This document shows, one piece after another, positions 5,593-60,318 of a DNA stretch of 64,000 bases. The notes beneath the pieces were generated by a model. It had not been told where the DNA came from, searched no databases, and was given only the letters and a program-made list of their open reading frames with translations. A program made the translations under genes and the position numbers. The DNA lies in assembly GCA_002287035.1 (NCBI GenBank), contig NSKG01000001.1:124001-188000 (forward strand), given 5' to 3'. This DNA comes from Pseudomonas sp. WN033. Lineage in GTDB: Bacteria > Pseudomonadota > Gammaproteobacteria > Pseudomonadales > Pseudomonadaceae. Position 1 is the stretch's first letter; the number at the start of each line of letters is the position of its first letter.

Positions 5593-7626
5593 TTACGGCA
5601 TCGCCGCCTCCAACCCGGTATTAACGCTACTCTGGGAGTCGGGGCCGATCTCGACAAAGGTGTCATTCTCCAGGGTGAACGCCGGCCAGTCGAAATCTTC
5701 GGTGCTGGGATTACCGGTTTTGGCGAAGTTGGTCCACATGGTCATGGTCAGATCAGCGATCTGATCATCGTCCGCGCCATACTCCATTGACAGAAAGATA
5801 TCCTGCACATCCCCCTGGCTACCGCTTACGCCATTACCATTGAGATCGCCAATTGCCGGGCGCTGCCCCTCGGGCGTCAGCACCAACCCCAACTGATAGT
5901 TCTGCACCATGCCCGCTGGATGATTGAACAGATAAGGCAGCTCGCAACCATGACAACTGCGCAGGCCCATATCCGCCCAGCCATCGGGAACACGACTGAA
6001 CTTGTAGACGAACTGCTCCGACTGGTAAGTATCGGAACGCTGGGCCAGCCAGATCGGCAGAAACGCCCTGAGCGTGTCGTAGTCACCGGAAGTGACGCCC
6101 GCCATCAGAGGTACATCGCTGGGCATCCCATCAAGCGCATTACGGTAATAGGTTTGAGGTTGGTAGTAATTGTCGGCATTAGGCCGGTAAGTCTGACGCG
6201 GAATATTGTTGATCAGATCAGCCTGCGCGAACGCAGTCCAGGGCAACGCCCGGGCTTGCTCCAGGGTTTCAACCCCGGTCCGCTCGAACAACGCCACGCC
6301 GATAGCCTCCGACTCGGCCAGCGATACCTCCGGACCACTGACAGTCTCGAGTGGGGCAAAACCGCTCATCACAATCGCCTTGTGGAAAAGCCCGGTGGCC
6401 TGCGGCGAATTCATCAACGAATAGGTTTTGCCACCACCCCCGGACTGGCCGAACAGCGTCACGTTATTCGGGTCACCACCAAAAGCTGCGATATTGTCCC
6501 GCACCCACTCCAGGGCCATGACCAGATCCATCTGGCCATAATTGCCTGAGCCGTTATAACCGCTCTCTTCAGTCAACAGCGGGTGGGCAATGTAGCCGAA
6601 TGGTCCCAGCCGATGATTCACGGTTACCAGCACTACACCCTTTTCAGTAAGCCCTTCAGGGTTGTTGTACTGACTGGAGTTGGCCGACAGGATGGCGAAG
6701 GAGCCGCCGTGAAACCAGACCATGACCGGCAGATTGTCGGCATCCTTGGGAGCCGTGATGTTCAGATACAGCGAATCCTCGCTCATGCCGCCCTTGTTGA
6801 CGGCCTGCAAGGTCGGATTCTGCGCCGACTGATCGGCCCAGGCCACCGCCTCACGCACCCCGGTCCACGGCTCCGGCGCTACCGGCGGACGCCAGCGCAG
6901 ATCACCCAGTGGCGGCTTGGCGTAGGGAATGCCGAGGAACTGCCAGGTATCTTCATTGGCCTCAAAACCACGCAGCTCACCTCCGGTGGTTGAAACCACG
7001 ATGCGCGGGCTGGTTGAGCGGGCGAAATGCTCCAGGGCATTGGCCACGGTAGTCACCGTGCGCGGCCGCGGGTCCGTATCGGTAAAGGCTCCGGCCTGCT
7101 GCAGCTCATCCACCAGGGTTGCCAGGCTGGCACGAAAATCTGCAGGCGACTGGTCAAAGTAGATGCCATCGGCATTTTGCGAGACGTGCTCACGAATCGC
7201 CTCGCTGATCTGAATGCCGTTGTTGAGATCGCCATCGGCATCCAGGCTCTGCAACAGGATCAGCATATTGACCACCCGCGGATCGTCCGCCGAGTCCGCC
7301 TCCGGGGTGATGCTCAGCGGCGTGAGGATATTGGCACCAACCGCCGATCCCAGTTCCAGATCACCAATGGCGAAGGTAATGGTCTCCCCTTCCCGGTAGC
7401 TGAACTGCCCCTGCGCATCGGTCTGGCCAGCGTCGGTCTCGCTGCCCTGATAATCCAGCCCGGCAACGGGGCTATCGACAAAGGTACCGGTTTGTACCTG
7501 GGGGCCGGATCGTGATGATGACGATGACCCGCCCAGACAGCCACTCAAGGCCAGAAACAGCGGAGCGAAAGTGATCCCAATCAGAACCGGGTAGAAACGC
7601 CGGCGTGTTTTGATACGGTAAGTCAT
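5593..7626 (-). CDS. Type B carboxylesterase lipoprotein, copy A
   Basis: 677 aa. A signal peptide ends in the lipobox LSGC with Cys30, then a serine-rich linker, so this is a predicted lipoprotein. Residues ~45-190 form an N-terminal domain of unknown function; the rest is a carboxylesterase type B domain with an oxyanion motif (MVWFHGGSF), nucleophile S395 in GQSGG, and a histidine region CHGCELPYLF. It probably hydrolyses carboxylic or polymeric esters outside the cytoplasm (inference). The start is taken at 7626 because GGAGG lies 5 bp before it; the in-frame ATG at 7638 overlaps that Shine-Dalgarno sequence. It lies 33 bp after copy B and is probably cotranscribed with it. Confidence 0.85.
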   Translation of the reverse strand: MTYRIKTRRRFYPVLIGITFAPLFLALSGCLGGSSSSSRSGPQVQTGTFVDSPVAGLDYQGSETDAGQTDAQGQFSYREGETITFAIGDLELGSAVGANILTPLSITPEADSADDPRVVNMLILLQSLDADGDLNNGIQISEAIREHVSQNADGIYFDQSPADFRASLATLVDELQQAGAFTDTDPRPRTVTTVANALEHFARSTSPRIVVSTTGGELRGFEANEDTWQFLGIPYAKPPLGDLRWRPPVAPEPWTGVREAVAWADQSAQNPTLQAVNKGGMSEDSLYLNITAPKDADNLPVMVWFHGGSFAILSANSSQYNNPEGLTEKGVVLVTVNHRLGPFGYIAHPLLTEESGYNGSGNYGQMDLVMALEWVRDNIAAFGGDPNNVTLFGQSGGGGKTYSLMNSPQATGLFHKAIVMSGFAPLETVSGPEVSLAESEAIGVALFERTGVETLEQARALPWTAFAQADLINNIPRQTYRPNADNYYQPQTYYRNALDGMPSDVPLMAGVTSGDYDTLRAFLPIWLAQRSDTYQSEQFVYKFSRVPDGWADMGLRSCHGCELPYLFNHPAGMVQNYQLGLVLTPEGQRPAIGDLNGNGVSGSQGDVQDIFLSMEYGADDDQIADLTMTMWTNFAKTGNPSTEDFDWPAFTLENDTFVEIGPDSQSSVNTGLEAAMP
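6816..7490 (-). repeat. Near-identical 675-bp segment shared with copy B
   Basis: This 5' part of esterase copy A aligns without gaps to 8853-9527 in copy B at a constant offset of 2037 bp. About seven amino acids differ over ~225 residues, whereas the catalytic parts that follow differ at roughly half of positions. The sharp change in similarity suggests gene conversion or a recent domain copy. Confidence 0.85.
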
Positions 7627-9657: not shown

Positions 9658-9927
9658 GCGGGTCTCCGTTTATTCTTGTAGTGGAGTTCCTTTCAGGCTC
9701 CTGAATAGCTGCCAGCCCCAGGACAACCACCCCGGACCAGACACAGGCAACCTACTGACGTCAGGCCTGGCTGTCATACATATTTAATAAACAACCCAAA
9801 CCTGACTTTTGACCTTAGATGTCACTCGCGTGAGACACAAACCAAATCAGAAACCGTTATGAATGTTCATTCACATGAGAATGATTACAAATAGACACCA
9901 GGGCATCTTGTGAACAATCAGGAAAAA
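9658..9927 (-). promoter_or_regulatory. Control region of the esterase pair
   Basis: This 270-bp AT-richer gap holds no gene. At 9860-9873 there is TGAATG-TT-CATTCA, an inverted repeat of the kind bound by TetR-type regulators. A second palindrome, CTGACGTCAG, is at 9754-9763. Neither can be assigned to a regulator from sequence. Confidence 0.4.
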
Positions 9928-10022
9928 TGGCGGAAGGACATGGGAGTCGAACCCACCAGACGCGCGTTGCGCATCTCACCGGAGTTGAAGTCCGGGCGCC
10001 CCACCGGGGACGATGTCCTTCC
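9928..10022 (-). tRNA. selC: tRNA-Sec (anticodon TCA)
   Basis: 95 nt including an encoded CCA. The acceptor stem has 8 bp (GGAAGGAC with GTCCTTCC), discriminator G, a long variable arm, and an anticodon stem-loop CCGGA-CTTCAAC-TCCGG whose anticodon TCA is at 9986-9988. The 8-bp acceptor stem and long extra arm are hallmarks of bacterial selenocysteine tRNA. It decodes UGA with the help of SelB. It lies 14 bp downstream of selB on the same strand, inside the selenocysteine cassette. Confidence 0.97.
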
Positions 10023-10036
10023 TGTATGGCGGCTGG

Positions 10037-11914
10037 TCAGCCGGCCACGAGAAAGCGTTGTTCGCGCGCGAAGCGGGTGACCCCGGCGCGGTCGAGATAT
10101 TCCAGTACCTGAATAGTCAGGTTGCGGCCAATGCCGGAGGCATCGCGGTACTCGGCGGCGTTGAAGCTGCCGCTGGGTGAGTCCGCCACCAGTTGCCGAG
10201 CCACAGCCACCAGGCCATCGACCTGCTCTGGCAGGTAATAGCGGTTGGGCGCCACCGCAATCAGCTCACCGGCACGCTGCATACGCCGCAAAAAGGCCTT
10301 GAGGGTTTCCAGCTCGATGCCCAGCGCCTGACTCAGTTCACCGACAATTGGCGGGCGCAGGCCACTCGGCAACAATTGCGCACTGACCCGCTCCAGCAGT
10401 GCCCGATCCTCAGCCAGCAATTGCGGCTGGTGCTCGGGCAGATGCCAGGCCCAGGCCTGGCGTCGTAGCCGACCTTCACCGTGCCAACGTTGCAACAGCG
10501 CCCGTCCCAGGACCAAAGGCAGTTGCAGCGTACTGGCCAGCGCCAGCTCGCCCTCGCCAGGGCCGAGCCGTTCCGGGTGCGCAGCATGCCAGTCCTGCAA
10601 CCGCTGGTGCAAGCGCGCCCAGGCGCTGTCGATCTGCCCGGCCAGCATCAGCCAGTGCTGGCGAGCCGCGTCCAGCAATTCGATACTGGCCGCGCTGTGC
10701 CGCAGTTCATCCAGCAGTTGCCGCTGCTCGCCCTGCGTCAGATTGAAGCGCACGGCAAAGCCGTCCAGTGCCACCGGTGCCTGTTGCAGCGCTGCCAGAA
10801 GCGCTGCACGCGGGCCATCGGCCTTCTGCCAGTGGCGCAGCAGTGCAAGACGCTCGGGCTTGCTGCGCCCGCGCTGCAAGCCCTGCGGATCGAGTACCCG
10901 GCCACCGCCCAGGGTCTGGTTGGCAGCCGGGTCGCGGATGATAAAACGATCCCCCCAGAGTGCCTGCACCGGCTGTTCCAGCAGCAGTTGCGCCAGCGCT
11001 GGCTGCCCCTCCTGCAGGATCACCGCCCGCAGCGGATGCACGCCAGTGCCCAGATGCAGTTGCAACACACCGCGATGCCAGTGACTGTCTGGGAGTTGAG
11101 TCAGCGCCACATCCAATCGGCTGCTGCCGGCCACCGCCACCTCGGTCAGCCAGTCACCACGCTGCGGCTGGGCAGCATCGATATCGCCAGCCAGATTCAG
11201 CGCACAACGCTGGCCAGCTTCGATCTGAGTCGCGTTGTTGCCGGCCATCTGCAGGCCGCGCACGCGCAGGCTGTGTCCGTTGCCGAACAACGACTGCCCC
11301 GACTCGATCCGCCCACTGATCAGCGTCCCGGTCACCACACAACCGGCGCCGTCGATACTGAAACGCCGGTCGACCATCAGCCGGGCATGCCCGGCTACTA
11401 CACGGCGCTGGTGCTCGCGGGCGCCGTTCAGCAGATGCTCACGCAGAACATCCAGCCCCTGCCCGGTCAGGCTTGAAACCGCAAACTGCGGTGCATCCGG
11501 CCAGCCCTGTTCACTCAATAGCTCTGCCAGTTCAACACTGAGCGCCTGTTGGCGTTCGTTCTCAACCAGATCGCAGCGGCTGATCACCAGGACCAATTGC
11601 TCGACCCCGAGCAGGCGCAATATCGCCAGATGCTCCAGGGTCTGCGGCATCGGCCCGTCATCGGCGGCCACCACCAGCAGCGCCAGATCCACCGCCGCCA
11701 CGCCGGCCAGCATGGTGCTGATAAAACGCTCATGCCCCGGCACATCGACAAAGCCCAGCGGCGGGCCACCCTCAACCGCCAGCCAGGCAAAGCCCAGCTC
11801 AATGCTCAGACCGCGGCGCTTTTCCTCGGCCAGGCGGTCGGTATCAACCCCGGTCAGCGCCTTGATCAGGCTGGTCTTGCCGTGATCGACATGCCCGGCG
11901 GTGGCGATGATCAC
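10037..11914 (-). CDS. selB: Selenocysteine-specific elongation factor SelB
   Basis: 625 aa. The N-terminal GTPase has G1 GHVDHGKT (residues ~7-14), DVPGHERF and SRCDL; domains II and III follow; the C-terminal ~230 residues are the winged-helix repeats that bind the SECIS hairpin. SelB carries Sec-tRNA to UGA codons that have a SECIS. A GTG start at 11914 is chosen because it gives the usual N-terminus (IIATAGHVDHGKT) and overlaps the selA stop as GTGA; an in-frame ATG five codons upstream is less likely. Translational coupling to selA is expected. Confidence 0.96.
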   Translation of the reverse strand: MIIATAGHVDHGKTSLIKALTGVDTDRLAEEKRRGLSIELGFAWLAVEGGPPLGFVDVPGHERFISTMLAGVAAVDLALLVVAADDGPMPQTLEHLAILRLLGVEQLVLVISRCDLVENERQQALSVELAELLSEQGWPDAPQFAVSSLTGQGLDVLREHLLNGAREHQRRVVAGHARLMVDRRFSIDGAGCVVTGTLISGRIESGQSLFGNGHSLRVRGLQMAGNNATQIEAGQRCALNLAGDIDAAQPQRGDWLTEVAVAGSSRLDVALTQLPDSHWHRGVLQLHLGTGVHPLRAVILQEGQPALAQLLLEQPVQALWGDRFIIRDPAANQTLGGGRVLDPQGLQRGRSKPERLALLRHWQKADGPRAALLAALQQAPVALDGFAVRFNLTQGEQRQLLDELRHSAASIELLDAARQHWLMLAGQIDSAWARLHQRLQDWHAAHPERLGPGEGELALASTLQLPLVLGRALLQRWHGEGRLRRQAWAWHLPEHQPQLLAEDRALLERVSAQLLPSGLRPPIVGELSQALGIELETLKAFLRRMQRAGELIAVAPNRYYLPEQVDGLVAVARQLVADSPSGSFNAAEYRDASGIGRNLTIQVLEYLDRAGVTRFAREQRFLVAG

Positions 11915-13287
11915 GCCCCGGCCTCCCACTGCTGACGCAGCGGTTCCGGGTCTTCCACGCAGCGGCAGTCGAGCAGCAGGCTGTCGTCGGCGATCCGCCC
12001 GATTACAGGCGTCAGCAACTGACGCAGGCGTTCGGCCAGTTCCCGCAATTCACGGCTGCGCGTGCGCTTGTTGCTGCTGGTGCTGCTCAGGCGTAGCGCA
12101 GCGCTGGGCAGGGTTTCCAGCGGCAGCGAACCGGAACCGATCTGGCTGAATACGTCACACACATCCGCCTCGAATCCCGCCCCGGCCCAGCCGCGCAGTG
12201 ACGGCAACAAGGCCTCAGCGGTCTGCCGGATGGCCGCCGGTTCACGGGTCAGCAGGCGCAGGGTCGGCACCCGCTGCACCAGGGTGTCCGGGTCGGCATA
12301 CAGCCGTAGCACCACTTCCAGCGCTGCCAGGGTCAGCTTGTCGCAGCGCAGTGCCCGCTTGAGCGGACTTTTGCGGATTTTGCTGATCAGCTCGGCGCGC
12401 CCGGCGATGATCCCGGCCTGCGGACCACCGAGCAGCTTATCGCCGCTGAAGGTCACCACATCCACGCCCTGAGCCAGAATCCGCCCCACCACCGGCTCGG
12501 CCGGCAAGCCCAGCGCCTGCATGTCGATCAGCGAGCCGCTGCCCAGATCGACCACCAGTGGTACGCCCTGGGCGCGGGCAATCCCGGCAAGTTGCGCCTC
12601 ATCAAGCGTGGTAGTGAAGCCCTGCACCTGATAGTTGCTGGTGTGCGCCTTGAGCAGCAGTGCGGTGCGCGCAGTGACCGCTTCGGCATAGTCACGGGCG
12701 TGAGTGCGGTTGGTGGTGCCGACCTCGCGCAGCTTGCAGCCGGCGCGGGCCATGATGTCCGGCAGCCGGAACGAGCCGCCGATTTCGATCAGCTCACCGC
12801 GCGACACCACCACCTCACGGCGCGCAGCCAGGGCATTGAGCACCAGCAGCACAGCGGCAGCGTTGTTGTTGACCACGGTAGCGGCTTCGGCGCCGGTCAG
12901 GCGGCAAATCCAGTCTTCGACGTGGGCATCGCGGTCACCACGTTGGCCCGTCGCGAGGTCGTATTCAAGATTGCTTGCTCCAGCGGCCACAGCGGTCATG
13001 GCTTCAAGGGCTTCCGGCGGCAAGGGTGCACGGCCCAGATTGGTGTGCAGTACGGTGCCGGTCAGGTTGAGCACCGGACGCATCGACGGTGCCAGGGTGC
13101 GTTCGATATGTTGCTGGACAGTAGCTACCAGAGTTGGCTGATCGCTGATCTCGCCGCTGCGCCAGAGCTCCAGCGCGGCGCGCAGGGAGTCCAGTACCAG
13201 CGCCCGGCCGTGACTGGCGATCAGGGCTTGCATGCCGGGCCAGGCCAGGGCCTTGTCTACTGCCGGGGGGCGTTGCTGGATGTTCAT
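11911..13287 (-). CDS. selA: L-seryl-tRNA(Sec) selenium transferase SelA
   Basis: 458 aa, full length for the family. SelA is a decameric PLP enzyme that converts seryl-tRNA(Sec) to selenocysteyl-tRNA using selenophosphate. The PLP lysine is K284 in FSGDKLLGGPQAG. The N-terminal segment PSMRPVLNLTGTVLHTNLGRAPL and the VVNNNAAAVLLVLNALA motif are diagnostic. It overlaps selB by 4 bp and lies 168 bp after the UGSC selenoprotein gene. No selD (selenophosphate synthetase) is in the window, so it must lie elsewhere if the pathway works. Confidence 0.97.
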   Translation of the reverse strand: MNIQQRPPAVDKALAWPGMQALIASHGRALVLDSLRAALELWRSGEISDQPTLVATVQQHIERTLAPSMRPVLNLTGTVLHTNLGRAPLPPEALEAMTAVAAGASNLEYDLATGQRGDRDAHVEDWICRLTGAEAATVVNNNAAAVLLVLNALAARREVVVSRGELIEIGGSFRLPDIMARAGCKLREVGTTNRTHARDYAEAVTARTALLLKAHTSNYQVQGFTTTLDEAQLAGIARAQGVPLVVDLGSGSLIDMQALGLPAEPVVGRILAQGVDVVTFSGDKLLGGPQAGIIAGRAELISKIRKSPLKRALRCDKLTLAALEVVLRLYADPDTLVQRVPTLRLLTREPAAIRQTAEALLPSLRGWAGAGFEADVCDVFSQIGSGSLPLETLPSAALRLSSTSSNKRTRSRELRELAERLRQLLTPVIGRIADDSLLLDCRCVEDPEPLRQQWEAGA

Positions 13288-13322
13288 GGCCTGGTACCCC
13301 AGGGCCGCCGTTGGCGGCCTTG

Positions 13323-13434
13323 GTTCGAGCAGATGCTCGAACGCTCCCAGGATAGGCCGGCAGATTTCGCGCTGGCTACGCGCCCATCCCGCTCATCAGC
13401 ACGTCTCTCCCGGGAGAGGCGAGCATCTGCTCGC
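13323..13434. repeat. REP-like palindromes between selenoprotein gene and selA
   Basis: Three perfect inverted repeats lie in this 168-bp gap: GTTCGAGCA-GA-TGCTCGAAC (13323-13342), CTCTCCCGGGAGAG (13405-13418) and GCGAGCA-TC-TGCTCGC (13419-13434). The GAGCA-NN-TGCTC core recurs at 38998-39019, which marks it as a REP family. As hairpins in the transcript they could lower expression of selA-selB relative to the genes upstream, or stabilise the upstream message. Confidence 0.6.
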
Positions 13435-13455
13435 AGCGGGGATGCACCAGCGCGA

Positions 13456-13992
13456 TTACTCGCCCGCGTCCTCTTCGGCGCGCAACAGGCGCAGGATTTC
13501 AGGCAAGGCGCCATCGGCCAGGGCGCGCATTTCCTCATCGGTGCGGTCCTGGATCGGGTGTGGCACAAAGACCATGGCCGGATCGAAGCCAAGCGCCTTG
13601 GATTGCAAGGCGGCAGCATCAACAAATTCACTGGAGGCAACCCCTACTCCCGGGATCTGACGTGACTCCAGGTCAGCGATGTCATGCATACAGCACGACG
13701 TGCACGACCCTCAGTCAGCCAGACCTTCGACCAGGAGATTTACCTCGGCAGCCATCTGCTGCTTGAGCTCGGTTGGCGCAATGCGGGTAAAGGTCGGCTT
13801 GGCGTAGCGCTTGACCTCGACGCCCATGGCCGCCAGTTGTTCCTCGATACGGTCGAGAAACACGTTGCCGCGCGGCTTGGAAATATCCAGCAGACCAACC
13901 ACCTTGCCCTCCAGACTGGCCGGACGCGCCAGCCGTGCCCGCTGCGCGGGCGCGCGCTCGGCCGTGGGGTCGAGCAGTATGTTCTCGTTCAT
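13456..13992 (-). CDS. UGSC-family selenoprotein (in-frame TGA = Sec94)
   Basis: 178 aa when TGA at 13711-13713 is read as selenocysteine. The text around it is GLAD-U-GSC-TSC-CMHD: Sec94, Cys97, Cys100 and Cys101. U-G-S-C is the defining motif of the UGSC selenoprotein family, a probable redox family with a Rossmann-like half before the motif (KVVGLLDISKPRGNVFLDRIEEQL). The frame stays open for 77 more codons after the TGA with conserved-looking sequence (FVPHPIQDRTDEEM). A hairpin starts 11 nt after the TGA. The ATG at 13992 overlaps the stop of the preceding gene as ATGA, which indicates coupling. Read as a stop, the TGA would yield a 93-aa stub without its redox motif. Confidence 0.93.
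13681..13699 (-). promoter_or_regulatory. Bacterial SECIS hairpin
   Basis: On the minus strand GTCGTGC-TGTAT-GCATGAC forms a 7-bp stem (one G-U pair) with a 5-nt loop containing GU. It begins 11 nt after the TGA, the same spacing as the upper hairpin of the E. coli fdhF SECIS, and the loop GU lies about 19-20 nt after the TGA. This is the expected SelB recognition element for Sec94. Confidence 0.85.
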
Positions 13993-15425
13993 GCAGTTAC
14001 CTCGCGTGTTACCGGAGACGAACCGACCGGGCCAGAGGCGGCCCAGCCGGCAATAATGGCGGAAAACAGGCCGGCGGTACCGCCAGCCCGGACGATCAGC
14101 AGGCCGCCGGGGCGGAACTTGGGCACCTGCAGATCCTTGAAACGTTCGGGAATACCCTCGGCAATGCCGCCAGCACCCGCGACCAGCTCGGCACCGGGCG
14201 CCAGCAGCAGCCGTTCCAGCTCTTCGCGCAGTCGCTGCTTGGACCAACCCGCGTCGATAAACACCCGCGCATGTTCGGGCGACACCACCAGCACTGCATC
14301 ACCGGCCATCGCCAGCTTGGCGTGATCAACCGCGCGCAGCGACAGAGCAAAGGAGCGCGCCAGCGATTCGGGATCGCGCGACTTCTGATCGACAATGCCC
14401 TGCACCCCTTCACCGGGGAACAGCGTTACCGCCGACCGTCCGGCCTCGATGCCACGTTCCTGGGCCAGCGGCAGCCAATCGCTGTCTTCTGCCTCGGCAA
14501 AGCAGAAACTGTACTTGCCGGGATTGCCCAGGGTGGCGCGGTCGATCTCGCCAGGGCGGCCACCACCAACATTGCGGATGATCAGTTGCAGCGCCCGGCC
14601 GATAGTGGCGTTGGCGCGATTGCCCTGGCCCAGTGCATTGACCCCGGAATTCATGCCGATGGCCTTGGCGACAGGGCCGTTGACCACGATCATCGGGCTG
14701 CCGAACATGGTGGTGCAGATCAGCCCGTGCAGGCCGAATTCATCGGTCAGCGCAGCTTCCAGCGCCGCCAGCAGCACCGGCATGTACTCCGGTTTGCAAC
14801 CGGCCATGACCGCATTGATAGCGACCTTCTCCACCGTGCAGGGCACCAGATCAGGTGGCATCAGCCCGACCACTTCATCCGGCGCACGGGTGGTGCCCTT
14901 GAGCATCCGCAGCACCCGCACCGGGGTCGGCGGCACTACCGGCAGGCCATCGCTCCAGCCACGCTCGTAACAGGCCTCGATGGCATCGTCGGCAGAAGAA
15001 ATATCGATTTCACGCGATTGCAGACGAATATCGCCAAAGGCCAGTTCCAGCTCCTCGGCAATGCCCGGCTCCAGGGTCTTGGAACCGCAGCCGGGGCGCA
15101 TCACCGGCAACTCCTCGCCCAGGGTCGGCACCCCGCTCAATGCTCGCCAGTCTTCCTTGTGCCAGCCATAGGTGCGCTCAACCTCCTGACCGTTCTCGAC
15201 CCGGATCAGGGTCGGTACGAACTCGATGCCAAGGCGATAGGAATGTTCCAGGGTCTGGTCATACAGAGTACCGGGCAGTGCGGCGGCGTACTCGGCCGAG
15301 TCCTGCACATACACGGTCAGCGCTCCGGCACCAGCCAGCTCCGCCAGCAGCGGTTCAACCAGCCGGCAAGTCGGGCAATCGGCCTTGGCCACCACAATCA
15401 GGCCATCGGGAAGTGCTGTAGTCAT
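13989..15425 (-). CDS. Thioredoxin-domain protein partnered with the UGSC selenoprotein
   Basis: 478 aa. Residues ~8-105 are a thioredoxin-like domain with the redox pair C17-P-T-C20 and FVPTLIRVENGQEV. Residues ~120-460 are a conserved domain that I cannot name, with a segment CTVEKVAINAVMAGCKPEYM, then VNGPVAKAIGMNSGVNALGQ and NATIGRALQLIIRNVGGGRPG. Its four-base overlap with the selenoprotein gene and shared operon with selA-selB suggest that the two proteins act together, with the CPTC pair perhaps reducing the Sec protein (inference). It is the first gene of the cassette; no clear promoter motif was identified in the ~560 bp upstream. Confidence 0.75.
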   Translation of the reverse strand: MTTALPDGLIVVAKADCPTCRLVEPLLAELAGAGALTVYVQDSAEYAAALPGTLYDQTLEHSYRLGIEFVPTLIRVENGQEVERTYGWHKEDWRALSGVPTLGEELPVMRPGCGSKTLEPGIAEELELAFGDIRLQSREIDISSADDAIEACYERGWSDGLPVVPPTPVRVLRMLKGTTRAPDEVVGLMPPDLVPCTVEKVAINAVMAGCKPEYMPVLLAALEAALTDEFGLHGLICTTMFGSPMIVVNGPVAKAIGMNSGVNALGQGNRANATIGRALQLIIRNVGGGRPGEIDRATLGNPGKYSFCFAEAEDSDWLPLAQERGIEAGRSAVTLFPGEGVQGIVDQKSRDPESLARSFALSLRAVDHAKLAMAGDAVLVVSPEHARVFIDAGWSKQRLREELERLLLAPGAELVAGAGGIAEGIPERFKDLQVPKFRPGGLLIVRAGGTAGLFSAIIAGWAASGPVGSSPVTREVTA

Positions 15426-15587
15426 CAGAAGCCCTTCTGCGGGTCTTGTGTCTCGTAATGATTCAGCATAGGCAGGCAGAGCCCCGCTGCCAACCGCCGA
15501 ACGGGAATCATGGGTGGGATGATTGGTGGGGTATCAGCGCTGGCAAGACCAGCCCGTGAGGCAACGCCGGCTCACCTGTGACGCCAC

Positions 15588-15692
15588 ATGGATTGCCACG
15601 TCGCTACGCGACTCGCAATGACAGCTGTGCGCACACATACCGTCATCGAAACACCCACCGTCATCGCGAGGCCGCAGGCCGTGGCGATCCAT
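15588..15692. repeat. Facing pair of REP-like elements
   Basis: A 35-bp element at 15588-15622 (begins ATGGATTGCCACGTCG, ends CGCAATGAC) faces an inverted relative at 15660-15692 (begins GTCATCGCGAGG, ends GCGATCCAT). Arms of this kind are dispersed short palindromes in many proteobacterial genomes. The second arm recurs at ~16518-16550 with the glyoxalase copy. Confidence 0.6.
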
Positions 15693-15719
15693 CGAGCCTG
15701 CGGCGGTGCAATCGAGCTG

Positions 15720-15862
15720 TCAGCCCATTCGGTGCAGAGCGCAAATCTTGTCGCCTGCCGGATCGCGCAGGTAAGCCCGGTAGAGTTTGACGCCATTGCC
15801 TTCACGCACACCCGGCGGGTCTTCACAGGTGACCCTGCCGTTGCCGCAGGCGGCTGGCGAGG
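15720..15862 (-). pseudogene. Truncated copy of the VOC/glyoxalase gene
   Basis: The minus-strand translation ends CEDPPGVREGNGVKLYRAYLRDPAGDKICALHRMG, almost the same as the C-terminus of the intact VOC gene at 16578-16958. Segment 15653-15833 aligns to 16511-16691 at a constant offset of 858 bp, then similarity resumes at 15835 against 16765, so 72 bp (24 codons, in frame) are missing. The N-terminal part is absent. It is a decayed duplicate, with the DUF3597 gene now between the copies. Confidence 0.8.
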
Positions 15863-15987
15863 CCTGCGCCAGTACCGTTCGGCATACCAACGTTGTGGTC
15901 AGGTCAAGCGCTGCTACGCTTGATGAACACGCCTCGGTGTAACTACTCAGGCGCGAAGGCAGGGACCACATTACCAGGGAGACGCTC

Positions 15988-16383: not shown

Positions 16384-16510
16384 CTCAAACCGATACGCCA
16401 TGCGGCGTTCGACGGAGCAGAGTTCGACATCATGAATAACTGCGCCGCATACCCATCCTGGTCACGGATCAATTGGTCAAAAGCTGCGGAGTTGTAGGTG
16501 TTCAGTAACC

Positions 16511-16691
16511 ACCCACCGTCATCGCGAGGCCGCAGGCCGTGGCGATCCATCGGGCCTGCGGAGGTGCAATCGGGCTGTCAGCCCATCCGGTGCAGAGCGC
16601 AGATTTTGTTGCCTGCCGGATCGCGCAGGTAAGCCAGGTAGAGTTTGACACCATTGCCTTCACGCACACCCGGCGGGTCTTCACAGGTCAC
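16511..16691. repeat. Direct repeat of 15653-15833
   Basis: This includes one REP-like arm and the 3' part of the VOC gene. Alignment with 15653-15833 is gapless and about 90% identical by eye. It records the duplication that produced the pseudogene upstream. Confidence 0.8.
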
Positions 16692-16958
16692 CCCGCCATT
16701 GGCCAGACCGGCAGCGTGCCAGGCATCAGCCTGTTCCGGACTGTCCACGGCAAAGCCGATGGTGCTGCCGTTGCCGCAGGAGGCAGGCTCACCATTGATC
16801 GGTTTGCTCAGGGCAAAGGTGCCGGTTTTGGTGAAGTAGAAGCAGCGGCCCTTAGGGTCGATGACGCCCGGCTTGGCGCCGATAACGCCGAGCACCGCAT
16901 CGTAAAAGGCCTTGGACGCCTCGATATCATTGGCGCCGAGCATGACGTGACTGAACAT
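16578..16958 (-). CDS. VOC (glyoxalase/bleomycin-resistance) family protein
   Basis: 126 aa, one vicinal-oxygen-chelate domain. It begins MFSHVMLGANDIEASKAFYDAVLG and ends DPAGNKICALHRMG, with the paired beta-alpha-beta modules of the family. Such proteins bind a divalent metal and act on glutathione adducts, dioxygen substrates or drugs; the substrate here is unknown. The start at 16958 has AAGGAA upstream; a longer in-frame start at 17003 has no such support. A broken second copy lies at 15720-15862. It is probably transcribed alone. Confidence 0.85.
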   Translation of the reverse strand: MFSHVMLGANDIEASKAFYDAVLGVIGAKPGVIDPKGRCFYFTKTGTFALSKPINGEPASCGNGSTIGFAVDSPEQADAWHAAGLANGGVTCEDPPGVREGNGVKLYLAYLRDPAGNKICALHRMG

Positions 16959-17150
16959 GATGTGTTCCTTGCTGATGGGTTGTTGTTGGGTCCAGCTCAA
17001 CAAGACTTCAGGGAAACAGCCGCGGCGTCAAGTCGGTGCCGTTCAAAAAGTTCACCCATCAATGCAGCCCTGCAACATTGAACTGCTGCTGGCAATGCCC
17101 TGCCCAACTCATCGGCACCACAGACCAGGCTCTGAAAACCCGCACACCGA

Positions 17151-17990
17151 TTAGTCCTCTGGGCGGGCTTGTCCTGTTGCGCCAACGCCAACCCGGCGAA
17201 GCAGCAGACTCGCCAGTTGCGACGTAGGCCAGACGCCGAGGTACATCAAGGTGCCAAAGGCGGCCAGTGCGGTCATGGCATCGGCAGCAGAACTGCTGGT
17301 GACGATTACCACCGTAGCCAGCGTCAGGTTGCGAATCACTGCGGTTGTCGCAAGCCCGGTTCTGGCATCCAGCAGTGCGCCACCCATGCCCTGCACCATA
17401 ACCAGCACAAGACATGCCGCAAGCAGCCCAGGCTGCTCAGGCAGTCGCGGCAACTCCCGCCATGCCACCAGCACAATGAGCGCAACGACAGAGAGCGTCG
17501 CAGCCTTGCCGAGCATGCTCAAGCCACGCGGAGACAGCCACCCCTTCGCCGTAGCAAAGCGCCCAAGCTGCCACGGCAACCACATGACGCCGGCCATCAC
17601 CAATGCCGTGATACCCAGGCGTTGCAGTGCATCCTCCGGCGCGGCAAAGGCCAAGGCGACCAGCGGCAAGGTCACCAGCGCCACCATCGCCCCAACGGCG
17701 AGCCGCGCGCTGATAGCCGCAGCGCTTGCACCATCACGCAAGGCCCAGGGCACGGCCGAGGTGCCGGTACCGGCCAACACACATAACGCCAGCCCCAGAC
17801 TGTGTGACAGCTCAACCAAACCGAACCGATGCATGAGCAGAATAACCAGCAACGGCGCTACATAATGCACCCCATAGAATGCCGGCCCCTGGCGCGCTGC
17901 CGGGTGGCCAGCCTGCGCCTTGGCCTGCGCGCCCAGATACATCATCACCAGCCATGACGACAACGGCGCCAACACGGTCAGGGTATTCAT
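17151..17990 (-). CDS. Membrane protein, BASS/ACR3-like transporter (tentative)
   Basis: 279 aa with about nine hydrophobic segments. A stretch TTAVIRNLTLATVVIVTSS near the C-terminus and LSMLGKAATLSVVAL before it recall bile-acid-symporter and arsenite-carrier folds, but identity is weak by eye. It overlaps the flavin monooxygenase gene by 4 bp (GATGA junction), so the two are cotranslated, and both lie downstream of an ArsR-type regulator. That context suggests efflux of an arsenical, another metalloid or a toxic thiol-reactive compound. Function is inferred from neighbours only. Confidence 0.55.
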   Translation of the reverse strand: MNTLTVLAPLSSWLVMMYLGAQAKAQAGHPAARQGPAFYGVHYVAPLLVILLMHRFGLVELSHSLGLALCVLAGTGTSAVPWALRDGASAAAISARLAVGAMVALVTLPLVALAFAAPEDALQRLGITALVMAGVMWLPWQLGRFATAKGWLSPRGLSMLGKAATLSVVALIVLVAWRELPRLPEQPGLLAACLVLVMVQGMGGALLDARTGLATTAVIRNLTLATVVIVTSSSAADAMTALAAFGTLMYLGVWPTSQLASLLLRRVGVGATGQARPED

Positions 17991-19072
17991 GAGATCACCC
18001 CGCGCGTCTCGGCATCACTGCCGTAACCCGCCGCTGCGTGCAGATGTTGCAGCACATGCGGCAGGATGAATGCTGCGTCCTCTCCTACACCACGCAAAGT
18101 GGCCGAAGCGAAATTGCGCTGCCGCGGGAATCCCACGAAAAAGAGCCCCGGAATGTTCCGAGCAATACCATTGCGCTGGGCCAGATGCTGGTGCGCATCA
18201 AGCACGCCAAGCCCCTCCAGAAAGCCCACAAACGGACGAAAGCCGGTAGCGAAGATCACCGCATCACACTGATCTTCGCGGCCATCGGGCCATACCACCC
18301 CCGTTGTCGTAAAACGCGTGAACAACGACCGCTGCACTACCCGCCCGTTTGCCAGAGCGCGACGATAGTGGCCGCTGTCGAGCACAGGCGTTCCCTGGTC
18401 CTTGAGCCAGCGGGTTTTCTCAAGGCCGGTCCACTTCACCCAGAAATGAAAGTCCAGCCCCAGCAGGCGCTGAGGAAAAAACCGCACCGGAGTGCGGCTA
18501 GCCAGCGTTACCTCGGCCACCTCGGCCAGTTCCACAGCAATCTGCACGGCCGAATTGGCACTGCCAACCACCACGACCCGCTGACCAGCAAAACTCGCCG
18601 GGTTCTGATAAGCAGCGCTGTGCAGTAGCCGCCCGGCAAACGTGTGCTGGCCGTCAAACTCCGGCATGAACGGCTGAGCAAAGGTGCCGGTAGCCACCAC
18701 CATCGTGTGCGCGCGGTAGCGCTCGCCGCAGGCGGTCTCAGCAACAAAGCCATGCGCTTCACGGGTCAAGTGCAGCACCCTGGCTCCCGTCCGCACCGGC
18801 AGGCGAAAATGCCGAGCGTAATCGTCCAGATAGGCCACCACCTCATCGCGCCCTGGATAGTGCTCCGGCGCACCCGGAAATCGCCGACCAGGCAGTGCGG
18901 AATAACGCGCAGGCGAAAACAGCTCAAGGCTGTCGTAGTAGTGACGCCAAGCGCCACCGGGATGAGCACCGGCTTCCAGAATCAGAAAGTCGACCTGCCG
19001 GCGTGCCAGATGCCAGCCAGTGGCAAGCCCGGCCTGACCCGCTCCGATGACCAGAGTTTGCAGTGTCTTCAT
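17987..19072 (-). CDS. ArsO-like flavin-containing monooxygenase
   Basis: 361 aa. It has an FAD-binding GAGQAGLATG near the N-terminus, an NADPH-binding GSANSAVQIAVELA around residue ~165, and ATGFRPF near the C-terminus, the layout of single-component FAD/NADPH monooxygenases. ArsO proteins in arsenic clusters are of this type. The start at 19072 has GGAGG 4 bp before it and is preferred over the in-frame ATG at 19123, which lies within a regulator-like palindrome. It follows the arsR-type gene on the same strand and precedes the membrane protein. Arsenic chemistry is inferred from context; sulfur or amine oxidation is also possible. Confidence 0.72.
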   Translation of the reverse strand: MKTLQTLVIGAGQAGLATGWHLARRQVDFLILEAGAHPGGAWRHYYDSLELFSPARYSALPGRRFPGAPEHYPGRDEVVAYLDDYARHFRLPVRTGARVLHLTREAHGFVAETACGERYRAHTMVVATGTFAQPFMPEFDGQHTFAGRLLHSAAYQNPASFAGQRVVVVGSANSAVQIAVELAEVAEVTLASRTPVRFFPQRLLGLDFHFWVKWTGLEKTRWLKDQGTPVLDSGHYRRALANGRVVQRSLFTRFTTTGVVWPDGREDQCDAVIFATGFRPFVGFLEGLGVLDAHQHLAQRNGIARNIPGLFFVGFPRQRNFASATLRGVGEDAAFILPHVLQHLHAAAGYGSDAETRGVIS

Positions 19073-19087
19073 GGCGCCTCCATTGCG

Positions 19088-19116
19088 AACATGCATGCGC
19101 ATACGTGCACATATTA
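19088..19116. promoter_or_regulatory. Candidate second ArsR operator
   Basis: The segment ATGCGCATACGTGCACATAT (19095-19114) resembles the right half of the palindrome upstream of the arsR-type gene (GCGCACATAT). It lies between that gene and the monooxygenase, so the regulator may control the two downstream genes separately. Confidence 0.4.
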
Positions 19117-19130
19117 GAATCAAAAAAGGA

Positions 19131-19490
19131 TCAGGCCGTCCCGTCGCCAGGGCAACAGAAGGGAGCCAGCTTGCGCATCTCGTGCAGAATCACCTCGAAC
19201 TGGCGCATCAACGCCGGCCCGTCGACTTCATAGATACGGTGCCGCCCTGCCCTCTCCACGCGAACAATGCCAGCCTCATGCAATTGCTGCAGGTGACGCG
19301 AGATCACCGAGCGTTCCTGCGGCAACTGCTGCGCAATCTCACCCACATCCGCACGCCCCAACAGCAATAATTGACGCAATACCGCCACCCGCGCCGGCTC
19401 CTGCAACGCCTTGAACAACTGGCTGTCGAGCACACCAATGGCCGCATCAATGGCCTGACTGCGCTGAGGATTGCTGCAAGGGTCGGACAT
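19131..19490 (-). CDS. ArsR family winged-helix regulator
   Basis: 119 aa. The winged helix runs LFKALQEPARVAVLRQLLLLGRADVGEIAQQLPQERSVISRHLQQLHEAGIV. The classical E. coli-type arsenite site (CVCDL in the DNA-binding helix) is absent. Cysteines are found only at position 5 and as a C-terminal CC pair (APFCCPG), which could form an alternative three-cysteine sensor as in some ArsR proteins. It probably represses its own operon (itself, the ArsO-like gene, the membrane protein) from a palindrome just upstream. Confidence 0.85.
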   Translation of the reverse strand: MSDPCSNPQRSQAIDAAIGVLDSQLFKALQEPARVAVLRQLLLLGRADVGEIAQQLPQERSVISRHLQQLHEAGIVRVERAGRHRIYEVDGPALMRQFEVILHEMRKLAPFCCPGDGTA

Positions 19491-21057: not shown

Positions 21058-23073
21058 TTATTGCTGAACAGGATGGATCAAGCCACGCGTTCGCCACCGA
21101 TTACCATTGACCAAAGACTCAAACAACACATTATTGGTTAATACCAAATCATCCGCATGATCTGTCACGATAATTTGTGGACTAAAGCCATTATTCAATT
21201 CAAGTTCGTTACAGTAAATCGAAAGTCGACTGAATAGATTTTCAACGGCCTTCATGTCTTCATCAACGGGTCTTTCGTTACCTTTCCGCTGTTCTGCCTC
21301 CTGACTCTTTTGCTCATCAAAGCTTTCAGAAGTATCACGATTAAAGTTAGGAAAATACACCTGAGTCGGCTGATCTAAAAACAGTACCGAAGGAATGGCA
21401 CATTTCTCACCTAACTCAGCAAAATACTTATGCAACGCTAAAAACAACGTTATGTGGCAGTAAAGCCAGTTTGCACCACTGCCCATTGATCGTAGATAGA
21501 TTTTTCCGTCATCAGGAGTTAAATGATAAAGATCAAATGTCTCGAATGAGAAATGCAGATTAATTGGTTTATAGCTAGCTTCAAACTCAAAATGGCTGCC
21601 TATTTCAGCCATATATTCGTTCACCTTGTCTGACGCCTGTGCCAAACCTTTTTGCACATCGTACTCTTCGAGCGCACCTGCAATCTTATTTAGTTGCTTT
21701 CTTAACACTTTAATTTCTTTTTCAAGCTCGTCGTCATCAGCCATATTTAAGGTATCAAGAAGCGAAAACAGCTTTGCTTTTTGCATAATAATACTTTCAT
21801 ACAAGCTCTTCTTTTCTGTTAGCTGCTGATCTGCTTTCTCAACCTCAGTTATTTGTTGATTTAACTCAGTCAGAGCTCTGCTTACAACCTCTATAGAACG
21901 CTGCACTTCAACCAAAGAAGATTCAAACTTTGCTTTCATCGGGCGAGCTTGAGCAAGGTTACCCGATACTTTAGCAATAGCCTGCTGAAGTTTCTCAGCA
22001 CTTTTTCGCAAATTGTCTTTTTCGGTATGGCAAAACGGGCATACCGTAGCGGCAATATGCACATGCTTAGGCGAGCTAAACTGCTTTACATTATCAACAA
22101 ATCGTTCTTCCTCCTTGATATGCTTGTTAATTGATGCAGATTGACGCTGCAACCTTCGTAGCTCAGCGGTTTTTTGATTACGCACCAATTTCAACTGCTC
22201 GTAGCGTTGTGTCATAGCGTCAGAATTATGATTTATTTTCTCAGCCACTATGATGCTGTCAAGTTGGCCTTTGGCATCTTGAGGGTGCTGAAGCACCTTA
22301 GCCAACGACAAGGGCTGATCCTTAAAGCCCATCAAGGCGTAGAGTTGACTTAATACGGGTTCGACTTTTTGTTTATAGCTCTCTGACGTACGCTTGTTGG
22401 TTTCTTTTTGGCGCTCTAAACGTCTTGCATCTGCACTTAGCCGTTCTTTCTCTTGTGATAAATGGAAGAACTTTTGATCGACAAGCCCCAAGAATATCTT
22501 TGTATGCTCAATCGCTTGATCTCGCTTTTCTTTCTCGTCGAACCGATAAAATAGCGCATGCTTATTGGCAACCAGGTTTTGATGTTGAAGCATAAACGAT
22601 GAAAAGCTACGAATAGATGGCGTAGGTGCTTTTTGATTAAACCGCCTATTTGCTCTCGCCGCCAAAGATTCATCAACATCATCGATATCTAAGAAAAAGT
22701 CCCTTAAGTGCTTTTTAAACTCGCTTAGTGGGCGAAAATAGCTGGCATTGAAGTAATCTCGATCAATTTCTGCCGTATTGAATGTCTCAGCACGACGAAA
22801 AAACGCTTTTGAAGCAATATCAGGATCACGAGCAATTACCATATCTTGCTCATTAACAGCAAGCGCAACATAGTAAACAGCAGCACTGTTGGTAATCACA
22901 CCTTTAGGAATGGTGTTTTCATCACTACCAAAACAGTAATCAAAAATTTCAATTAAGGCACTTTTACCTGTTGATGATTTGCCGGTAACAACATTAAGCC
23001 CAGCTTTAAAATTAACTGAGTGCTTGATCCCTTGCTTATCAATTACGCCAATTTCATGAATAAGTGTTTTCAT
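21058..23073 (-). CDS. ABC-3C system ATPase (DUF3732, SMC-like)
   Basis: 671 aa. The N-terminus carries an ABC/SMC-type Walker A (GKSSTGKS, residues ~31-38) followed by LIEIFDYCFGSDENTIPKGVI; a long coiled coil (~180-470) is interrupted by a zinc-knuckle-like C345-x2-C348 (VCPFCHTEKDN); the C-terminus has a Walker-B-like VLFLDQPTQVYFPNF. This is the DUF3732 ATPase of the ABC-three-component (ABC-3C) systems, predicted anti-invader systems. Its start overlaps the stop of the middle component by 4 bp. Codon use is AT-rich, unlike the flanking genome, a sign of transfer. Confidence 0.85.
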   Translation of the reverse strand: MKTLIHEIGVIDKQGIKHSVNFKAGLNVVTGKSSTGKSALIEIFDYCFGSDENTIPKGVITNSAAVYYVALAVNEQDMVIARDPDIASKAFFRRAETFNTAEIDRDYFNASYFRPLSEFKKHLRDFFLDIDDVDESLAARANRRFNQKAPTPSIRSFSSFMLQHQNLVANKHALFYRFDEKEKRDQAIEHTKIFLGLVDQKFFHLSQEKERLSADARRLERQKETNKRTSESYKQKVEPVLSQLYALMGFKDQPLSLAKVLQHPQDAKGQLDSIIVAEKINHNSDAMTQRYEQLKLVRNQKTAELRRLQRQSASINKHIKEEERFVDNVKQFSSPKHVHIAATVCPFCHTEKDNLRKSAEKLQQAIAKVSGNLAQARPMKAKFESSLVEVQRSIEVVSRALTELNQQITEVEKADQQLTEKKSLYESIIMQKAKLFSLLDTLNMADDDELEKEIKVLRKQLNKIAGALEEYDVQKGLAQASDKVNEYMAEIGSHFEFEASYKPINLHFSFETFDLYHLTPDDGKIYLRSMGSGANWLYCHITLFLALHKYFAELGEKCAIPSVLFLDQPTQVYFPNFNRDTSESFDEQKSQEAEQRKGNERPVDEDMKAVENLFSRLSIYCNELELNNGFSPQIIVTDHADDLVLTNNVLFESLVNGNRWRTRGLIHPVQQ

Positions 23074-23522
23074 CGCGGCTTCACTCCTAAAAACGCATAA
23101 ATCTCGACCACTGAGCGACCGCTAAATAATCGCCCTAACTTTTCTGCACTTTTTTGAGAGATAAAGGCTGATTCAGCCTCATCACATTTCGCCAGGGATA
23201 GCCGCTGTTCATTAACCGATAGCCAATCATTGACTAAGCAATATTGAATACACTGCTCTGTTAGGGCTTGAAATCCGTCAATGCGTTCTTGAAGATCATA
23301 AAGCTTTACTCGATTGTCAAACACAGACCATATTGAACTTCGTTTATTCGAGCTCAACAGCTTATAGCTGTATATAGGATGACTACACAGCGGGATAACC
23401 AGCTGAGCGAGTAATAGATTGTTTTCCGCCTCATCCAAATGTGTATAAAAAGAGGCCAGATATGGCCCATACTCAAACGGGTTATACTTTAATTCGTATA
23501 GGGCATCGACAATACTACTCAC
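23070..23522 (-). CDS. ABC-3C system middle component
   Basis: 150 aa, all-helical looking, with no catalytic motif. It begins MSSIVDALYELKYNPFEYGPYLASFY and ends GRLFSGRSVVEIYAFLGVKPR, the usual frame of 'three-component ABC system middle component' proteins, which bridge the ATPase and the effector-like component. It overlaps its upstream neighbour by 4 bp (stop/start) and the ATPase gene by 4 bp, so the three are translated as a tightly coupled set. The identification rests mainly on gene order and size, with support from the N-terminal sequence. Confidence 0.75.
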   Translation of the reverse strand: MSSIVDALYELKYNPFEYGPYLASFYTHLDEAENNLLLAQLVIPLCSHPIYSYKLLSSNKRSSIWSVFDNRVKLYDLQERIDGFQALTEQCIQYCLVNDWLSVNEQRLSLAKCDEAESAFISQKSAEKLGRLFSGRSVVEIYAFLGVKPR

Positions 23523-60207: not shown

Positions 60208-60318
60208 GGGTGGCCCTACCAGCCACACCCCGGCACACGATGTCACCGCTGTGGCTGCTCCCTTCCGGGCCTGACCAGGTTCACGGCTAATCATTGCGAG
60301 GGGACCGGCAGGGCCACC
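60208..60318 (-). ncRNA. ffs: Signal recognition particle 4.5S RNA
   Basis: About 111 nt. Ends GGTGGCCCTGCC and GGTAGGGCCACC pair. The conserved apical part CAGGCCCGGAAGGGAGCAGCC, with its tetraloop and asymmetric loop, is the Ffh-binding site. Opposite it, GTGTGCCGGGGTG completes the hairpin. The RNA binds Ffh to form the bacterial SRP, which targets nascent membrane proteins. Confidence 0.96.

Follow-up and report, generated by a model that had tools for sequence, protein, structure and literature searches.

Gene organization at the locus

Here, we describe a selenoprotein gene of the UGSC family in Pseudomonas sp. WN033, together with the gene directly upstream of it (hereafter, the partner gene) and the selenocysteine (Sec) genes downstream, and consider which reaction the two encoded proteins may catalyze. 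The locus lies in a 64,000-nucleotide stretch of contig NSKG01000001.1 (assembly GCA_002287035.1, positions 124,001 to 188,000), referred to as the window, in which all positions below are counted. Its features are as follows:

13456-13992, minus strand: UGSC selenoprotein gene, 178 aa, with ATG at 13992 and TAA ending at 13456; matches to PF24696 and NF041046
13711-13713, minus strand: in-frame TGA (Sec94), first residue of UxxCxxC (U94, C97, C100)
13681-13699, minus strand: apical hairpin of the Sec insertion sequence (SECIS) element, 7 bp, loop UGUAU, beginning 11 nt after the TGA
13670-13710, minus strand: predicted outer stem enclosing the apical hairpin, with weaker conservation (78.4% of cells paired)
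13989-15425, minus strand: partner gene, 478 aa, its stop overlapping the UGSC start (ATGA, 13992-13989); present in 80 of 81 loci
15129-15425, minus strand: thioredoxin domain of the partner, residues 1-99, C17-P-T-C20; structure match, invariant Cys
13992-15029, minus strand: C-terminal domain of the partner, about residues 133-478; no family over cut-off, conserved C210 and C308
15465-15546, minus strand: two promoter-like sites a short way upstream of the partner gene, recognized by consensus match alone
11911-13287, minus strand: selA (TIGR00474, 577.1 bits, cut-off 267.9)
10037-11929, minus strand: selB (TIGR00475, 353.6 bits, cut-off 242.25)
9928-10022, minus strand: tRNA-Sec, anticodon UCA (ARAGORN; Rfam RF01852, 80.1 bits, gathering score 47)

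Conservation of the in-frame TGA

Translated from 13992 to 13456 with TGA read as U, the gene runs for 178 codons up to its TAA, and its sole TGA is codon 94, in the context GLADUGSCTSCCMHD. Two curated models recognize the product: PF24696 ("UGSC") at 140.4 bits (cut-off 25; expectation value (E) 8.4e-41) in a match that covers residues 6-171 and so spans the TGA, and NF041046 ("UGSC family (seleno)protein") at 147.2 bits (cut-off 125). The first-pass annotation, made from the sequence alone, had placed Sec94 in the UGSC motif through an in-frame TGA flanked by an unbroken frame, which the translation, both models, and the conservation described below bear out. It left the minus-strand location of the gene unstated, and overlooked both that the family has long been known and that the upstream partner gene is the better functional lead.

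Conservation was followed in 81 loci, i.e. the window's own (L001) and, out of 237 relatives confirmed by tblastn, the best 80 (L002-L081), which are thus near relatives by selection, with 57-93% protein identity to the window copy (own copy aside). TGA occupies the codon-94 position in all 81 loci, the protein runs on beyond it in the relatives, and C97 and C100 are both kept throughout (81/81). A true stop was seen in none of the homologues examined, further copies having either TGA or Cys at this position; Cys is aligned with U94, as had been anticipated, in L084/L087, L085, L095, L097, L098, L099, and L100. For the comparisons below, the UGSC reference list comprised 79 of 80 sequences (L058, whose match runs over the final stop, was left out), and the UGSC profile model was built from 54 sequences, namely that of the window and a selection of the others.

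The expected truncation of such genes by annotation was encountered in one case: the only annotation at the Sec copy of L096 is a 291-nt "hypothetical protein" (6001-6291) ending exactly at the TGA (6289-6291). This Sec-type copy is carried by a conjugative IncP plasmid, Acidovorax p2-T1, near insertion sequence elements. A Cys-form copy, L084 (G277, C6), has an in-frame TGA about 30 residues past its CGSC motif, which may reflect a pseudogene, an assembly error, or some other cause.

The SECIS hairpin

All elements of the hairpin noticed earlier, i.e. 7 bp, a loop containing GU, and a start 11 nt after the TGA, were found in the sequence (GUCGUGC-UGUAU-GCAUGAC following the 11-nt spacer). The first-pass annotation likened this placement to that in fdhF. 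The predicted fold has an ordinary energy (z -0.99; 34 of 200 shuffles reach an equal or better energy), and support for the putative element is comparative, not derived from single-sequence energy. The hairpin persists in Sec-containing relatives: the 81 loci contain 52 distinct 44-mers, of which 47 form all seven pairs, 2 form six, and 3 form five. When six further Sec copies are added, giving 58 sequences (L090 and L091 were omitted as repeats of L089), 97.0% of cells pair, versus 96.1% in shuffles of the pairing partners (0/500 as high) and 1-54% in versions of the pairing slid out of register. Compensatory change is sparse: L086 and L096 have G-C in place of C-G at a single pair, and 127 of 500 shuffles reach the same number.

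Synonymous variation gives a sharper picture. Entropy within the hairpin is low at T98 (0.53 of 2.00 bits), S99 (0.14 of 2.58), C100 (0 of 1), and D104 (0 of 1), and H103 is encoded by CAT or CAC only, either of which keeps a G-U or G-C pair. Flanking codons vary much more freely, as seen at G95 (1.87 of 2), S96 (2.18 of 2.58), I105 (1.17 of 1.58), and D107 (0.98 of 1). Among the conserved codons listed for a 70-codon stretch, relative entropy falls below 0.3 only at codons 98, 99, 100, and 104, the next lowest value being 0.47 at codon 89. Furthermore, loop positions 2-3 are G-T in 58/58 aligned Sec sequences (G23 and T24 invariant) and in 0/6 of the Cys copies compared, a set that leaves out L084. 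The stem can still fold in some Cys copies (L095, L097, and L099), so that the stem alone is non-diagnostic, and specificity lies in the loop and in the synonymous pattern.

Sec machinery and its co-occurrence with UGSC

The placement of selA, selB, and tRNA-Sec downstream of UGSC on the same strand, claimed in the first-pass annotation, is confirmed by profile matches above their cut-offs and by the agreement of ARAGORN with Rfam. A selD match without internal stop is located elsewhere in the genome. The 168-nt gap between UGSC and selA (13288-13455) holds palindromes discernible by eye, and no terminator-like site was called on its minus strand. Taken with the conserved TGA and hairpin, these genes indicate that the UGSC protein is almost certainly made full-length, through SelB/SECIS-directed decoding of the TGA at codon 94.

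Of the 81 loci, 54 have selA, selB, or both immediately downstream on the UGSC strand, with a median of 73 nt between matches; another 2 have them at a different place in the locus, 21 have neither in the locus, and 4 are too short to judge. Within the genus, UGSC was found in 27 of 37 genomes and a tRNA-Sec above the gathering score in 28 of 37; comparison of the two sets by hand gives agreement in 34/37 (both present in 26, both missing in 8), with a Fisher p of 1e-5 that is uncorrected for kinship. The discordant genomes are G423 (81% complete), G427 (79%), and G424 (93%, 210 contigs), the last with its tRNA-Sec 295 bases from a contig end. In some genomes of the genus, e.g. G431, UGSC and tRNA-Sec are far apart.

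In the source genome, four molybdopterin-enzyme genes have no stop within the matched region and no GRDB match was obtained, so that no second selenoprotein was met among the families searched, the genome not having been scanned for others. UGSC is not the sole selenoprotein genus-wide, since in G414, G418, and G426 a molybdopterin gene containing a single TGA is found no more than about 0.5 kb from a tRNA-Sec. G419 has a molybdopterin-enzyme gene with one in-frame TGA and is without a tRNA-Sec above the gathering score.

The partner gene

The reading frames of UGSC and its upstream neighbor overlap by four bases, and tblastn finds the partner upstream of UGSC, on the same strand and within about 3 kb, in 80/81 loci. 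It is adjacent in nearly all of them (about 1.1 kb off in L065 and 3 kb in L078), and the exception, L016, is a record that begins inside UGSC at a contig end. Additionally, the C-terminal part of the partner stands beside all 5 further UGSC copies in 4 genomes and beside UGSC in 6/6 plasmid records. The pairing thus covers Sec and Cys copies of both bacterial and haloarchaeal origin; in haloarchaea, the C-terminal part stands alone as a protein of 333-353 aa. Within 9800-15900, the two promoter-like sites upstream of the partner gene are the only ones (shuffles: mean 0.7, standard deviation 0.9).

Residues 1-99 of the partner adopt a predicted thioredoxin fold (Z 9.5, root mean square deviation 2.1, 83 aligned), and C17, T19, and C20 are invariant in 51 partner sequences; the best sequence match is to a thioredoxin at E 6.5e-4, yet the domain falls below the Pfam thioredoxin cut-offs. 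These 51 sequences, the window's plus a choice of the rest, also form the partner profile model, and the partner list omits 5 of 80, i.e. L016, which has no partner, and L034, L056, L059, and L063, where it is partial or split. In the C-terminal domain, C308 is present in 62/62 and C210 in 61/62 sequences, and profile searches brought no family over its cut-off. VIA-align rows for the partner were filled by its thioredoxin part. Foldseek rows for the C-terminal domain included fumarases (7xky_A, E 6e-4; 5l2r_A, E 1.6e-3; template modeling (TM) score at most 0.32), and hhalign against 10 fumarases lent no support to a class I fumarase assignment (probability 0.1). No other fold emerged for this domain. 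A PrdA-like identity of the partner was rejected, with probabilities of 0.1 and 0.2 against a profile of 3 PrdA proteins. On the strength of this near-constant pairing, UGSC and its upstream neighbor are quite likely two subunits of one enzyme.

Predicted fold and kinship to GrdB and PrdB

The AlphaFold2 (AF2) model of UGSC (mean predicted local distance difference test (pLDDT) score 90.9, predicted TM score (pTM) 0.84) contains five beta-alpha units, U94 being located at the third strand-helix junction. UGSC is thus modeled as a five-unit alpha/beta domain, unlike the thioredoxin-like fold suggested for it in print. The best Foldseek rows are a flavin mononucleotide (FMN) reductase and a flavodoxin at TM scores of about 0.4, and the VIA-align rows (Z 9-11) represent mixed three-layer alpha/beta folds, so that structure singles out no relative. 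By sequence, searches for solved relatives returned nothing above chance-level rows for UGSC (E at least 0.23), none for one GRDB-like protein, and weak rows for one PrdB (asparaginase first, E 0.01).

A comparison with GrdB and PrdB was suggested by the UxxC(xxC) motif; UxxCxxC is the motif given for GrdB in PMC13188914. A profile of 4 PrdB proteins, 3 GRDB proteins, and 29 GRDB-like loci was aligned with a profile of 64 UGSC sequences; seven PrdB/GRDB regions were fetched, and L137, which is not readable in one frame, and L138 were left out of the profile. Local hhalign gave a probability of 90.9 and a score of 50.2 (E 1.1e-6 for this single comparison) over 96 columns, and put the UGSC motif on the UGTC motif of PrdB. 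In the same local mode, 150 column shuffles reached at most 24.6 and the reversed profile 16.9, and fold-matched controls (response regulators and PurE) scored at most 23.2 against either profile. The score is 44.3 with the 54 near UGSC sequences alone, 49.0 with the 10 divergent ones alone, and 47.9 against the 29 GRDB-like loci alone. The column aligned with U94 is Sec in 3 of the 4 PrdB proteins and 23 of the 29 GRDB-like loci. The GRDB-like loci (L104-L132) come from one class of the phylum, and the 23 have TGA at the PrdB Sec column, so that Sec-containing GRDB-like proteins seem to be common in that class.

Distribution and gene neighborhoods

The UGSC family occurs in 5 of the 398 genomes of the phylum sample, source genome included. 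Relatives of the window copy belong to Pseudomonadota, and some are labeled Latescibacterota, Chloroflexi, Gemmatimonadota, or Actinomycetes/Acidimicrobiia. Cys homologues are found in L085 and L084 (same phylum), three haloarchaea, Variovorax, and Embleya.

Neighboring genes were surveyed in 50 chosen loci, with clusters labeled by eye. The partner cluster is present in 50/50, selB in 23/50, and selA in 17/50, followed by clusters in 11 loci (which looks like an antisense frame), 10 (short-chain dehydrogenase), and 7 (ATP-binding cassette (ABC) transporter), and by smaller ones in 6 (tricarboxylate-transporter binding protein), 6 (Latescibacterota only), and 5 (acyl-CoA dehydrogenase). Divergent plasmid copies are surrounded by genes for CoA transferase, CoA ester lyase, hydroxymethylglutaryl-CoA lyase, a phosphoenolpyruvate (PEP)-mutase-like protein, and tripartite tricarboxylate transporters, not every record carrying all of them. 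On the Variovorax plasmid, trxB is located four genes upstream of the Cys-form UGSC, on the same strand.

Proposed function and mechanism

Considering the sequence comparisons together, the best overall explanation may be that UGSC and its partner form a thioredoxin-driven selenoenzyme that catalyzes reductive cleavage of a carbon-heteroatom bond, to which we assign a probability of roughly 0.55. In this scheme, the selenolate of U94 would attack the substrate carbon, or the heteroatom on it, and break the bond between them reductively; C97, perhaps with C100, would resolve the oxidized selenium as a Se-S bridge, which the CPTC thioredoxin domain of the partner would reduce before being recharged by thioredoxin reductase and NADPH. 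The C-terminal domain of the partner would bind the substrate. Hints to its identity come only from the genes near the divergent plasmid copies, and a carboxylic acid as the substrate of those copies fits these neighbors.

Whether the UGSC subunit is distantly related to the Sec domain of GrdB/PrdB and works in a similar way appears evenly balanced on the profile evidence. More tentatively, and somewhat doubtfully as a whole, UGSC and its partner could constitute an unrecognized branch of the glycine/proline reductase superfamily, thioredoxin-linked and without a PrdA-like subunit, that performs reductive carbon-heteroatom cleavage in ordinary Pseudomonadota and also, with Cys in place of Sec, in haloarchaea, and that may, in genera like that of the source, be the main reason why the Sec machinery is kept and co-inherited. 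The constant partner, the GrdB/PrdB kinship, and the co-presence of tRNA-Sec would turn an orphan selenoprotein into a two-subunit candidate with testable chemistry.

A number of observations weigh against this proposal. Global hhalign of the same two profiles gave a probability of only 40.8 and a score of 26.7, the shuffles having been run in local mode only, and the kinship controls were two fold-matched families rather than a calibrated database search. The local score drops to 36.6 (probability 59) against the 4 PrdB alone and to 35.7 (probability 49) against the 3 long GRDB alone. The window protein gave no row with PF07355 at E up to 10 and none with TIGR04483 at E up to 0.001, and the divergent L098 copy reached 12.5 bits against the latter (PrdB) model, whose cut-off is 300; UGSC is under both cut-offs and can therefore be counted at most as a relative at superfamily level, outside either family. 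Since the partner does not resemble PrdA, the pyruvoyl subunit, a pyruvoyl-requiring mechanism cannot be transferred to it. Moreover, C100 is replaced by Trp in L086, L095-L097, L099, and L100, which makes the second thiol not essential family-wide. In 9 of 11 divergent copies, similarity to the partner begins no earlier than residue 133, i.e. without the thioredoxin domain, and this domain is uncovered by tblastn in L059 and L063. Finally, neighbors apart from the partner and the sel genes vary.

Alternative explanations

The alternative that survives best, though unlikely, is that UGSC and its partner are a catabolic enzyme in which Sec or Cys acts as nucleophile or metal ligand in a non-reductive step on organic acids (lyase, transferase, or hydrolase). 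The genes around the divergent plasmid copies (CoA transferase, CoA ester lyase, hydroxymethylglutaryl-CoA lyase, PEP-mutase-like, and tripartite tricarboxylate transporter) speak for it, whereas Sec and the fused thioredoxin domain point to redox turnover, and the kinship to GrdB/PrdB likewise counts against a non-reductive role.

UGSC could also be a thioredoxin-like thiol-disulfide or peroxide-handling oxidoreductase to which the partner just supplies electrons, which we regard as improbable. The thioredoxin-like fold suggested in print and the thioredoxin domain of the partner are in keeping with it, but the five beta-alpha units of the confident model find an FMN reductase and flavodoxins among their best rows, the VIA-align rows are other three-layer alpha/beta folds, and the UGSC profile shares no similarity with the thioredoxin-containing partner (probability 0.3). 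This explanation also leaves unaccounted for the conserved second domain of the partner, of about 340 aa.

Handling of a metal, a metalloid, or a selenium/sulfur compound, with Sec as ligand, seems more improbable still. A 2026 review states that Sec in some other families may bind metals (PMC13188914), and some 4-5 kb upstream of UGSC the window has genes for an ArsO-like monooxygenase (17987-19123) and for a regulator of ArsR type (19131-19490). Nevertheless, the ArsO-like protein is below its model cut-off (292.4 vs 425 bits), and no recurrent neighbor cluster was recognized as a metal gene by eye, the clusters not having been scanned against families.

A true stop at the TGA followed by a decaying remnant, for which the unexceptional single-sequence hairpin fold might speak, is practically precluded, being ruled out by conservation of the TGA and the downstream protein in 81/81 loci and by the low synonymous variation within the hairpin, and opposed also by selA, selB, and tRNA-Sec next door with selD in the genome and by Cys homologues that read through the position.

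Other features of the window

A three-gene defense system of the Lamassu/ABC-3C type is present at 21058-24655 on the minus strand, comprising an LmuB-like ATPase with DUF3732, an LmuC-like MC3, and an LmuA-like protein. A 195-nt direct repeat, 93% identical between copies, occurs at 15649-15843 and, 858 nt away, at 16507-16701; a glyoxalase-like gene (16578-17003, minus strand) extends with its 3' end into the second copy, and the first therefore looks like a partial duplicate. The bacterial small signal recognition particle RNA is found at 60214-60310 on the minus strand (75.8 bits).

Comparison with known systems

Publications have covered the UGSC family since 2008 or earlier, and it ranks fifth in number among the selenoprotein families of an ocean metagenome table, with 255 Sec and 21 Cys forms (PMC2398784). 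Its function is counted among those largely uncharacterized in the 2026 review (PMC13188914), and the word "UGSC" is absent from PMC1088965. Searches for literature on DUF6282, on the "UGSC family", and on Halopseudomonas with selenocysteine found none. The window protein shares the motif, Sec, and the SECIS hairpin with the family as defined by NF041046/PF24696, which has both Sec and Cys members; the definition excludes the partner gene and the sel cluster, and the protein itself shows no difference.

UAG-coded Sec has reportedly been described by Mukai et al. Selenoproteins with the UGSC motif occur in Geodermatophilaceae together with a tRNA-Sec of anticodon CUA, as given in the part of PMC5330540 concerned; they have the same family name, and the Sec codon is UAG there versus UGA here. 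The UGSC/Unknown_1 fusion reported in the pertinent passage of PMC2398784 is likewise a UGSC protein with an associated conserved domain, and may represent the same association, Unknown_1 being perhaps the partner domain.

With PrdB (TIGR04483) and GrdB/GRDB-like proteins (PF07355), UGSC shares the local profile match of about 96 columns with Sec in the same column, the motif being UGTC in PrdB, UPxC-type in the GRDB-like loci, and UGSC in the window protein. It differs from them in that its partner is thioredoxin-fused and not PrdA-like and in that the global match is weak. A link between UGSC and GrdB/PrdB was not found in the printed passages around UGSC. The window gene is thus one more member of a known family, to which the present analysis adds an enzyme hypothesis.
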